From NCBI RefSeq assembly GCF_004363235.1, contig NZ_SNYW01000011.1, forward strand, positions 1 to 64,000: 64,000 nucleotides of DNA, given 5' to 3'. Origin of the DNA: Dongia mobilis. Its GTDB lineage: Bacteria > Pseudomonadota > Alphaproteobacteria > Dongiales > Dongiaceae. Positions 38,125 to 41,048 of the stretch are shown one piece after another. A program made the position numbers and the translations under genes. How positions within the stretch are numbered: position 1 is the stretch's first letter; every line of letters begins with the position of its first letter. The notes beneath the pieces are model-generated. The model ran no database searches. It worked only from the letters and a program-made list of their open reading frames with translations, and was not told the origin of the DNA.

Positions 38125-39069
38125 TTAGGCCGAAGCCGGTCCGGCCAAGGCCAGGACCAGCAGGCCGCCACCGACCGCAATCACGAAAAGCGGGCCAAGT
38201 AGGGCAAGAAAGCGCGCCCAATACCCCCCGGCCGGCAGGCGCAGGCTGACCTGGCGGCGCAGGAGAATGCTGGCGATGCCGAGGAGGGCCAGGGTCAGGC
38301 CCATGCCGAAGGCGATGGCGCCGGCCATGGCGATGCCGGCGAGGATCAGGCCGTTGGCGAGGGCGAAGAGCAGGACCAGAATCGCCCCGGAACAGGGCAC
38401 GAAGCCGGCGGCGATGGCGAGGGCGCGCTGTTCCAGCCTGCGCCCCCTGCCCCCAGCGGAATCCCGGGCGGCCTCACCGATGCCATGATTACAGGCGTGG
38501 CCGTGATGATGGTGATGGGCCGCATGGTCCCGCCCCAGCCACCATTCGCGCAGCATCAGGAGGCCGATCGCCAGGATCGCGCCATAGCTGACCACGCGCA
38601 GCCAGAAGAACTGGCTGGTGGGCGAGACCAGAGCTCTCGAGAGGACAAGATGCGCCAGCCCGACGATCACCACGGCGCCGACCACATGGCTGATGGCGAT
38701 CCAGCTTGCCATGGCAACACCGCGGACGGGCCGTGCCTCGCGGCCCAGGAAGTAACCGATGACGACGCTTTTGCCATGGCCCGGACCCAGGGCATGGAAG
38801 ACGCCATAGAGAAAGGCAAACAGGATGCCGGCCCAGAGGGCGCCCCGATCCTCGCCGCGCTTGATGGCGACAAGGCGCGCATTGAGGGCACGGTTGACGT
38901 CGCGTTGCCAGGCATAGATCTGGTGCCGGACCGGCTGCAGGAAGCCGCCGGAGGCGGCCGGTTCCGGCGCCGCAGCGACGGCGCCGCCACCGAACGGGCT
39001 GGCTTCCTGGGCGCGCGCCTCTATCGTCCCCACGCCCAGCAGGAGAAGCAGGAGAACAACGAATCTCAT
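38125..39069 (-). CDS. NicO/RcnA-type nickel-cobalt-class metal transporter
   Basis: The 314-residue membrane protein starts with a signal-like helix (VVLLLLLLGVGTIEARAQ). It has the NicO hallmarks FHALGPGHGKSVVIGYFLG and AIAAGFVPCSGAILVLLFALANG. A histidine-rich loop (AHHHHHGHACNHG) may bind metal. The start at 39069 overlaps the stop of the DUF1007 gene in ATGA; the ATG at 39075 is an alternative. The pairing with DUF1007 and a Zur-controlled znuA suggests zinc transport rather than nickel, although the family's best-studied members export nickel and cobalt. Confidence 0.87.
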   Translation of the reverse strand: MRFVVLLLLLLGVGTIEARAQEASPFGGGAVAAAPEPAASGGFLQPVRHQIYAWQRDVNRALNARLVAIKRGEDRGALWAGILFAFLYGVFHALGPGHGKSVVIGYFLGREARPVRGVAMASWIAISHVVGAVVIVGLAHLVLSRALVSPTSQFFWLRVVSYGAILAIGLLMLREWWLGRDHAAHHHHHGHACNHGIGEAARDSAGGRGRRLEQRALAIAAGFVPCSGAILVLLFALANGLILAGIAMAGAIAFGMGLTLALLGIASILLRRQVSLRLPAGGYWARFLALLGPLFVIAVGGGLLVLALAGPASA

Positions 39070-39662
39070 TGGCATGATACCGATATGGCCTGGGGAATGA
39101 CGAAGCCGCCGTAATAGGCATTGGCCGGATCGTCGCGCACGACGGCCTCGCATCTGTCGCTGCCCGCGCCTTCCAGGGCGATCGGATTGTCGGCAGCCAG
39201 AAGCACCTCGACGTAATACTCGCGGTCGCTGATTTCGAGGCGAAGCGCCTGTGTGCGAGGATCGACCGGCGCCGGCAATGTGAAGGTCAGTTCGAAATGC
39301 AGGGCCCCCTCCTGCTTCCGCGCGGCGAAGGCCGAGGGGGCCAGGTCGCGGTAATCGGTGCCGTCGACCGAGACATGGGTGAAATAGCGAAAGCTGGCCA
39401 GATTGGGCAGGGTTCCCTCGCCCATCGCGGCACTCTCGGCCGCGCTGATAGCCCCGTCCGCATCGGCGTCGTAGTGCAGCATCATGTCTTCGGTAAAGAT
39501 CTCGTCGAAACGCCAATCGGTGCGGAAGCCGACAAGTTTTCCGCCCTCGAAATGCAGCACGACGCGGTTGTCGATGAAGACATGGGGATGGGCCACGGCA
39601 GTGGCGGACCCGCCCGTCATGAGCAACAGCGCGGCGAAGCCCGATAATACAAACCGGTTCAC
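39066..39662 (-). CDS. DUF1007 family periplasmic protein
   Basis: The 198-residue protein starts at GTG 39662, has a signal peptide (LSGFAALLLMTGGSATAVAHP) and continues with the family opening HPHVFIDNRVVLHFEGGKL. An EF-hand-like acidic stretch (DADADGAISAAE) follows. DUF1007 proteins regularly accompany NicO transporters in metal-responsive gene sets and may be their periplasmic partner. It is coupled to the transporter gene by a four-base overlap and follows the 96-residue protein by 13 bases. Confidence 0.8.
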   Translation of the reverse strand: MNRFVLSGFAALLLMTGGSATAVAHPHVFIDNRVVLHFEGGKLVGFRTDWRFDEIFTEDMMLHYDADADGAISAAESAAMGEGTLPNLASFRYFTHVSVDGTDYRDLAPSAFAARKQEGALHFELTFTLPAPVDPRTQALRLEISDREYYVEVLLAADNPIALEGAGSDRCEAVVRDDPANAYYGGFVIPQAISVSCQ

Positions 39663-39675
39663 GTTCGCGTGATGA

Positions 39676-39966
39676 CTAGAGCGATTTGTCCGGCGCCACG
39701 CTGAGCGAGCAGCTGCAGAAGGGGCAGGAAACGGTCGTCCGGTAATCCGCCGGCACATGGCCGGCCGCCACCTCGCCATTGAGGAAGCTGCGCATCGCCG
39801 TCACCAACTCGTCATGGGAGGTGGTGGCGCGGCAGGACAGCGCCATCGCCTCCCGGTCCGCCAGCGACAGGGGTTCGCTGGAGAGCGCCCGCGCGGTACC
39901 CGTGCCCAGGACCGAGAACGGCAAGGCCATGGTCGTGGCTTTCAGCAGAAGGCGTCTTGTCAGCAT
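39676..39966 (-). CDS. Exported 96-residue protein with a Cys-rich C-terminus, unknown function
   Basis: The ATG at 39966 has GGAGAA upstream. The N-terminus MLTRRLLLKATTMALPFSVL carries a twin-arginine-like signal, and the mature part ends with VSCPFCSCSLSVAPDKSL, where three cysteines in CPFCSC could bind a metal. I do not recognise the family. It lies between znuA and the DUF1007 gene in a Zur-controlled run, so a periplasmic metal-handling role is a fair inference. Confidence 0.72.
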   Translation of the reverse strand: MLTRRLLLKATTMALPFSVLGTGTARALSSEPLSLADREAMALSCRATTSHDELVTAMRSFLNGEVAAGHVPADYRTTVSCPFCSCSLSVAPDKSL

Positions 39967-40007
39967 GTGGCATTCTCCGTTCCCGGCGATCTCAACGGCA
40001 GAATAGG

Positions 40008-41012
40008 TCAACGCAACGCTTCGAGCAACGTCGCCTGATTGTACCGGAACAGGGATTGGAGCGTCGGCGCGGGACCATCCGGGCCGGACAAGGCGTCGGC
40101 ATAGAGCGCGCCACCGATCCGGATGCCGGTATCGGCGGCGAGAGTCTCGATGAGGCGCGGATCGGTCATGTTCTCAAGGAAGGCGGCGCCGACGCGGCCG
40201 GCCTTGGCCTGTTCGACGATCTTCTTCATATCCTGGGCGCTGGGCTCGGCCTCCGTGCTGGCCCCCTGCACGCTCACGAAGTCGAGGCCGTAGGCGCGGC
40301 CGAAATAGGCAAAGGCGTCATGGGAGGTGAGCACGCGGCGTCGCTCGGCCGGCAGCTCGCCGAAGGCCGCTTTGAGTTCTGCATCGATGGCGGCGAACTC
40401 GGCCTTCAGGGCATCCGCCCGCGCAGAAAAGCCGGCGGCCAGGCCGGGCCGCGCCTCAGCCAGGCCGGCGGCGATGTTGTCGATATAGCCCAGCACCAGC
40501 CGTGCGTCCTGAAAGGCATGGGGATCCGATTCGCCGTGATCGTGGTGATCAGGGCCGGCGCCCGGGGCACGATCCGCATCGTGATCGTGGTCGTGGTCGT
40601 GGTCTTCGCCCTCATGTGCGTGTTCATGTTCATGTTCGTGTACATCCCCGGCTTCGGTCCAGGCCAGCGGCTCGATGCCGGCGGTCGCTGTCACTATGCG
40701 CCCCTCGAAACCGGCGGCATCCGTCAGTCGCTCCAGCCAGGACTCGAAGCCAAGGCCATTGGCGATCAGAAGCTCCGCCCCGGCCACGGCACGCTGATCC
40801 GCGGCACCCGGGTCGAAACCATGGGCGTCCTGGTCGGGCCCGACCAGGACGGTGAGGTCGACACCATCGCCGCCGATCTGGCGCACCAGATCGCCCAGAA
40901 TGCTGAAGGTGGCGACCACCCTGACCGGCTCCTGCGCGGTGGCCAGAACCGGCTGCAGGCAGAAACCAGCGGCCGAGAAGGCGAGAAAGGTGATGAACTG
41001 GCGAAGGCGCAT
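40008..41012 (-). CDS. znuA: Zinc ABC substrate-binding protein ZnuA
   Basis: The 334-residue periplasmic protein has a signal peptide (FLAFSAAGFCLQPVLATAQ) and the cluster A-I fold: VVATFSILGDLVRQIGGD, LVGPDQDAHGFDPGAAD and LTSHDAFAYFGRAYGLD. A long His/Asp/Glu-rich loop near residues 125-160 is typical of ZnuA and may gather zinc. It starts at 41012, only 14 bases downstream of a near-perfect Zur site. No znuB or znuC gene follows; instead a 96-residue protein, DUF1007 and a NicO transporter do. Confidence 0.94.
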   Translation of the reverse strand: MRLRQFITFLAFSAAGFCLQPVLATAQEPVRVVATFSILGDLVRQIGGDGVDLTVLVGPDQDAHGFDPGAADQRAVAGAELLIANGLGFESWLERLTDAAGFEGRIVTATAGIEPLAWTEAGDVHEHEHEHAHEGEDHDHDHDHDADRAPGAGPDHHDHGESDPHAFQDARLVLGYIDNIAAGLAEARPGLAAGFSARADALKAEFAAIDAELKAAFGELPAERRRVLTSHDAFAYFGRAYGLDFVSVQGASTEAEPSAQDMKKIVEQAKAGRVGAAFLENMTDPRLIETLAADTGIRIGGALYADALSGPDGPAPTLQSLFRYNQATLLEALR

Positions 41013-41025
41013 GGCAGCATCCAAT

Positions 41026-41048
41026 GAAATGTTATAATATAACACTCA
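41026..41048 (-). promoter_or_regulatory. Zur box upstream of znuA
   Basis: The plus strand reads GAAATGTTATA, one base, then TATAACACTCA. It matches the Zur consensus described for gamma-proteobacteria (GAAATGTTATA-N-TATAACATTTC) at 19 of 22 defined positions, and the first half is perfect. The position right before znuA makes zinc-Zur repression of the whole operon very likely. Confidence 0.9.

Follow-up and report, generated by a model that had tools for sequence, protein, structure and literature searches.

A four-gene operon on the reverse strand of a 64-kb stretch of Dongia mobilis DNA (positions 1 to 64,000 of contig NZ_SNYW01000011.1, hereafter the window) lies behind a Zur-type operator. 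We consider it likely that the operon supplies one part of a split Azt-type zinc importer, whose genes are divided between two main operons with Zur boxes, together with co-expressed helpers of zinc acquisition. The window operon is real, conserved and mostly explicable as a zinc-uptake operon, comprising part of the split importer, a ZevAB-like pair and an undescribed protein of the twin-arginine translocation (Tat) type. We describe below its gene content and boxes, the split itself, and how far these associations are conserved in other genomes.

Gene content of the window operon

Read along the minus strand, the operator (41029-41045) is followed by a gene for a ZnuA-family zinc-binding protein (40008-41012; 334 amino acids, 252 bits to PF01297), which has a His/Asp-rich loop and is nearest to AztC. 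Next comes a gene for a Cys-rich protein of 96 amino acids (39676-39966) with a twin-Arg (Tat-type) leader and a conserved C...H...CPxCxC motif, then one for a DUF1007 exported protein (39066-39662; PF06226, 120 bits) with an EF-hand-like loop and a conserved Cys pair, and finally one for a NicO-family membrane transporter (38125-39069; PF03824, 58 bits) with a His-rich loop. The genes are likely to form one transcription unit, because they are separated by gaps of 41 bp and 13 bp, and the DUF1007 gene shares 4 bp with nicO. The first-pass annotation had described this order and a near-perfect Zur box before znuA. Both descriptions hold, with nicO just beyond the interval it gave, and the palindrome, GTGTTATATTATAACAT on the minus strand, has no mismatch at all. 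The operon is flanked by a TANGO2-like gene and purC, and neither znuB nor znuC adjoins it. The best solved structures for the ZnuA-family protein are 5kzj and 5w56, each deposited as a 'periplasmic solute binding protein'.

Zur boxes and regulators

Allowing up to three mismatches, the Zur pattern RTGTTATANTATAACAY matches the window only at the operator, 16 bp from the ATG of the ZnuA-family gene, and it has no match in 100 dinucleotide shuffles of the window. Across the genome (4.19 Mb in 14 contigs, given as 100% complete), the window site is the best match and the only one without mismatches; a single mismatch is found only at C2:495543, and two at C3:354091. A Zur-type box with zero to two mismatches also lies upstream of the AztC-like gene in all 11 genomes that share the window arrangement, our own included. 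In other words, the window operon has the conserved upstream Zur-type palindrome by which a Zur regulon is recognized, as the first-pass annotation had proposed. That annotation had also advised looking for zur elsewhere in the genome. The genome encodes three FUR-family proteins, one Zur-like, one IrrA and one Fur-like, and the Zur-like regulator (135.6 of 167 bits) is at C9, a contig other than that of the window. From the sequence we infer that Zur regulates both operons.

The first-pass annotation regarded a gamma-type box as odd for an alphaproteobacterium. That concern is removed by Caulobacter, whose Zur shifts, in electrophoretic mobility shift assays, promoter fragments bearing predicted sites such as GATGTTATATCATAACAAT and AATGTTACTTTATAACACG; the window box shares its core with predicted sites in these Zur-bound promoters (excerpts of PMC4176598). 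The Caulobacter sites (same excerpts) and the presence of the box in relatives also lead us to reject lateral transfer as its origin.

The site on C3 fits a palindrome modelled on the Paracoccus motif (excerpts of PMC5387054) better than it fits the Zur pattern, with one mismatch; the reversed control gave no match. This third Zur-like box (C3:354093; L005:4093-4110) lies directly upstream of a siderophore-type ATP-binding cassette (ABC) transporter resembling EitA/EitC (L005:4134-7026), and a like box is found just upstream of the equivalent binding-protein gene in three congeners (L083, L084 and L087). The C3 transporter possibly takes up a zincophore.

The second half of the proposed importer

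A profile search of the genome with PF01297 returned one match, the window protein, and thus no second ZnuA. PF00950 gave three matches, only that at C2:496551 being strong; of the weak pair, one belongs to a FecCD permease and one scores 19.5 bits. The C2 box lies directly upstream of an ATPase gene and the gene for the strongly matching permease, with no binding-protein gene beside the two. Against the NCBIfam models, the window protein scores 255.9 bits for AztC (cut-off 350) and 77 for ZnuA (cut-off 268); the C2 ATPase scores 203.6 for AztA (cut-off 220) and 79 for ZnuC (cut-off 306); and the C2 permease scores 245.8 for AztB (cut-off 280) and 97 for ZnuB (cut-off 284). All three proteins are therefore nearer to Azt than to the enterobacterial Znu equivalogs, and reach the cut-offs of neither.

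These findings change two expectations of the first-pass annotation. It had described the operon as lacking znuB and znuC; an ATPase and a permease are encoded on another contig, behind their own Zur box and with no binding protein. It had also allowed that znuBC might simply lie elsewhere with its own znuA, of which the first half is so and the second is not. We propose that the window binding protein and the C2 ATPase and permease would assemble as one ABC importer. On zinc shortage, Zur would leave both boxes; the window would then yield the AztC-like periplasmic zinc-binding protein, and the other contig the AztA-like ATPase and AztB-like permease, and the three products would make up the importer. 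The DUF1007 and NicO proteins would serve as a pair of periplasmic binder and membrane transporter, in the manner of the ZevAB zinc system, and the role of a folded periplasmic carrier or buffer of zinc would fall to the Tat-type C...H...CPxCxC protein. We infer the metal and, for NicO, the direction of transport.

Conservation of the split in related genomes

We searched 17 genomes of the family and found the Cys-rich protein in 15. In 11 of these, namely all seven of genus g1 (our own included) and all four of g3, its gene sits with an AztC-like gene and DUF1007, and in 10 of them with NicO as well (in G006 the contig ends). Loci L061-L064, labelled as two Dongia, one Proteobacteria and one Rhodospirillaceae, are the same DNA as G005, G007, G002 and G006 and were counted once. 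All 11 genomes with this grouping have the ATPase-permease pair at a different locus, where no AztC-like gene occurs in the 1.5 kb around the permease; the pair is preceded by a box with at most two mismatches in nine and with three mismatches in one, while in the last the contig starts too near.

The genes for ATPase, permease and binding protein are thus not contiguous in our genome and its 10 relatives. They are contiguous in G012 and G013, where a similar ATPase and permease are followed directly by an AztC-type gene, and the same order is found on plasmids of Skermanella, Azospirillum, Gemmobacter, Phyllobacterium and Paracoccus. G012 retains the TANGO2-like neighbor and the Cys-rich gene, with no binding-protein gene between them.

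The DUF1007-NicO pair

We surveyed DUF1007 in 385 genomes drawn from the class and obtained matches in 100 genomes, at 102 places. After exclusion of five places in our own genus and one partial match below the cut-off, 96 loci remained, which we examined with 1.5 kb on each side; several come from congeners, so that they are not 96 independent events. NicO was found near DUF1007 in 91 of the 96, and znuA, znuB, znuC or zur in 34. A Zur box was present at 24 loci with at most two mismatches, at 13 with at most one and at seven with none, wherever in the 1.5 kb it stood, an upstream position not being required. For comparison with the 24, shuffled sequences gave a mean of 0.4 loci (largest 2, 20 runs) and the reversed pattern gave one. 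Altogether, 37 of the 96 loci have a box, a zinc gene or both. Of 398 genomes drawn from the phylum, 98 have DUF1007, and the 34 of these outside the class were studied likewise: NicO was found in 31, zinc genes in four and a box in eight, with none for the reversed pattern, the only control in this set.

These counts support a link between DUF1007-NicO and zinc genes or Zur boxes over part of its range. To this extent the suggestion in the first-pass annotation of an alternative zinc route or a zinc-sparing set stands; its zinc-sparing part does not, as no zinc-sparing paralogue of a zinc protein is found within the operon, to which that search was confined. Among the literature matches listed, none places DUF1007-NicO in a Zur regulon. 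One example of the neighborhood is plasmid p402633 of Paracoccus alcaliphilus (L275/L276), where the genes that come after aztABCD, in convergent orientation, are a NicO gene and DUF1007; this NicO, annotated as 'hypothetical protein', is 31% identical to that of the window and has the signature HALGPGHGK.

The window DUF1007 protein has HPHVF right after an A-x-A signal-peptidase motif, as the family starts with HPHxW/F after a predicted signal peptide. In an alignment of 49 sequences (A5), D122 and C147 are invariant and C173 is kept in at least 90%; HPH is also invariant there by selection, as only frames with HPH were taken. The DUF1007 tally of 85/96 is similarly not an independent count, because the frame was chosen partly via the HPH motif. 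EF-hand models match part of the family weakly (up to 11 of the 49 members at E <= 1), and a sequence search for solved relatives gave none that convinced, only weak matches, mostly to EF-hand proteins. A structure model (md35964c6cdd4) has a predicted local distance difference test score (pLDDT) of 79.7, and a Foldseek search with it gave no match at E <= 1e-3. The best match by VIA-align (Z 9.3, root mean square deviation 4.0 over 152 residues) was to the extracellular domains of pentameric ligand-gated channels, a likeness of the model that may reflect only a common beta-sandwich. Homology to ZrgA is not supported, as hhalign gave a probability of 0.8%; the ZrgA structure 8ezw ranked 12th in Foldseek at E 0.03, which is a lead only.

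Two small proteins

In an alignment of 14 Cys-rich sequences, our own included (A1), C45, H51, C81, P82, C84 and C86 are invariant. The family is present in 31 of the 385 class genomes. We examined 25 distant loci (L038 covers just 0.7 kb upstream), one further match having no locus, and found zur, znuA, DUF1007 or NicO within 1.5 kb of the Cys-rich gene in 13. The twin Arg and C...H...CPxCGC are kept in nearly all distant members; L058 is without the first and last Cys, and no Cys motif was found in L060. At E <= 0.001 the protein matches no family of Pfam or NCBIfam, although the Pfam TAT_signal model matches weakly in three of the 14 members (best E 0.005). A sequence search for solved relatives gave weak matches only, none convincing, and the structure model (pLDDT 66.0) is too weak for a fold search. 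If true, the predicted Tat export suggests that the protein folds, perhaps with metal, before it is exported.

The stretch that separates the ATPase gene on C2 from its box holds an unannotated open reading frame, L004:7612-7704, whose 30 codons would specify one hydrophobic span. All 10 of the g1 and g3 genomes with enough upstream sequence, our own included, have a frame at this place, 30-38 residues long and 23-52 bp away from the box. Differences among the five 30-residue frames number 95, 66 and 145 by codon position; these are pairwise and so not independent, and their distribution is as expected of coding sequence. Similar frames precede the ATPase gene in G012 (L193), L099, L102 and L118, and the same scan found none in L106, L123, L124, L129 and L197. 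The ATPase gene is present in five of six plasmid-borne loci examined (not in that of Roseomonas). Among these, Skermanella rosea (annotated as 'hypothetical protein') and Azospirillum lipoferum have a similar frame before it, and no such frame was found in the Phyllobacterium and Paracoccus loci; the candidate in Gemmobacter aquarius is uncertain, as it would overlap the ATPase frame. The micropeptide may start the other half-operon and is possibly a small subunit of the importer.

It may be, though we hold it less likely than not, that alphaproteobacteria have two unrecognized small parts of zinc uptake. One would be the Tat-exported C...H...CPxCGC protein, the other a micropeptide under Zur control, with a single span and about 30-48 residues, encoded directly before aztA. 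The Cys-rich protein would be folded, and perhaps loaded, in the cytoplasm, and would hand zinc to periplasmic AztC/ZnuA or to DUF1007, as the third part of a ZevAB-like system. The micropeptide would be a small subunit of the ABC importer, by analogy with KdpF, the small subunit of the Kdp pump.

Alternative explanations

Several observations weigh against the split importer with its zinc helpers. At up to three mismatches, the genome has six true and six reversed-pattern matches per strand, so that only the best Zur sites carry meaning. The three Azt scores all fall below the curated cut-offs, which is why we write 'Azt-type' and not 'Azt', and AztD (NF038015) has no match in our genome. The ATPase-permease-AztC operon of G012 has no box of two mismatches or fewer (three only), although that of G013 has a good one; no box of at most two mismatches accompanies the Cys-rich-DUF1007-nicO genes of G013 or the znuA-DUF1007-nicO cluster of G016. 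In 12 of the 25 distant loci (L036, L038, L039, L040, L041, L043, L052, L053, L055, L056, L058 and L059), the Cys-rich gene has no zinc gene within 1.5 kb, and in L038, L041 and L043 it adjoins short-chain dehydrogenases; because of such relatives, the role of the protein may be wider than zinc uptake. Likewise, at 59 of the 96 DUF1007 loci the 1.5 kb on each side hold no zinc-uptake gene and no box, so that some DUF1007 proteins may act on other metals or be under a different control. Finally, NicO proteins take their name from nickel and cobalt, and some are exporters.

This last point, with the 59 loci and the record annotations 'nickel/cobalt transporter', leads to the rival that DUF1007 and NicO handle nickel or cobalt and are under Zur for that purpose, with NicO either exporting nickel and cobalt that leak in through the induced zinc importer or importing cobalt as a substitute for zinc. 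The window NicO does match a nickel/cobalt efflux model weakly (NF007454, PRK10019, presumably RcnA), but at 39 bits it is far below the cut-off of 195, and DUF1007-NicO adjoins zinc genes and Zur boxes across many lineages. The zinc binding reported for ZevA, and the reported rescue of zevAB mutants by zinc, also speak against it; we regard this rival as rather unlikely. The third Zur-like box, before the EitA/EitC-like transporter (C3:354093), raises the further thought that the window binding protein serves a different permease, such as that of this third, FecCD-type ABC transporter, or acts alone as a zinc buffer, on a separate route. However, the C3 transporter comes with a binding protein from a different family (PF01497), the C2 ATPase and permease are of the same Azt type with no other PF01297 protein found for them, and the ATPase-permease-AztC order occurs in G012, G013 and the named plasmids, so a separate route appears improbable. 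With a genome in 14 contigs, one might suspect that faulty assembly, or a rearrangement that happened recently in this strain alone, produced the split. The window site, however, is some 40 kb from the end of a contig of 289 kb, and the 10 other g1 and g3 genomes, which show the same split, refute this explanation.

Comparison with known systems

The split Azt-type importer resembles AztABCD of Paracoccus denitrificans (excerpts of PMC5387054) in that its parts score best on Azt models, a Zur-type box is present and relatives have the A-B-C order. It differs in having its genes at two loci, in scores under the equivalog cut-offs and in the lack of any AztD found in the genome. As for the classical divergent ZnuABC-Zur cluster, the relative G016 has znuA-DUF1007-nicO facing zur-znuC-znuB, whereas in our genome zur is on another contig and the window protein, at 77 of 268 bits, falls outside the ZnuA equivalog.

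In non-typeable Haemophilus influenzae, Rosadini et al. (2011) reportedly described ZevA (HI1249) as a probable DsbA substrate, exported, disulfide-bearing and zinc-binding, and ZevB (HI1248) as a membrane protein; zevAB mutants are said to fail in ethylenediaminetetraacetic acid (EDTA) and to be rescued by added zinc. ZevA and ZevB are putative members of the DUF1007 and NicO families. As in ZevAB, an exported binder and a membrane transporter share one operon here, with a 4-bp overlap of their genes; in contrast to ZevAB, this operon also encodes an ABC binding protein and a protein of the Tat type, and it stands behind a Zur box. ZevAB appears as a zinc system of H. influenzae in excerpts of three further articles (PMC3872050, PMC10563805, PMC8000910).

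A comparable set is BP3077-BP3082 of Bordetella pertussis, in which a TonB receptor, a nickel/cobalt transporter, DUF1007 and an ABC transporter form one operon, adjoining an oppositely transcribed Fur-family regulator (excerpts of PMC9858536). In the same excerpts, the authors liken the ABC transporter to a manganese importer and do not settle the metal. The DUF1007-NicO pattern found here suggests zinc, not manganese, for this operon.

What appeared to be half an operon thus becomes a testable model, in which one zinc importer is made from two loci with Zur boxes. The interest lies not in a missing transporter but in how widely DUF1007-NicO is linked to Zur and in the two small proteins, one of which represents a Tat-type family that has no name and is rich in metal ligands. 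In part of the Proteobacteria this pair is tied to Zur, while the records speak of a 'nickel/cobalt transporter' and of 'unknown function'; if the ZevAB reading is true, many annotations may shift from nickel/cobalt to zinc.

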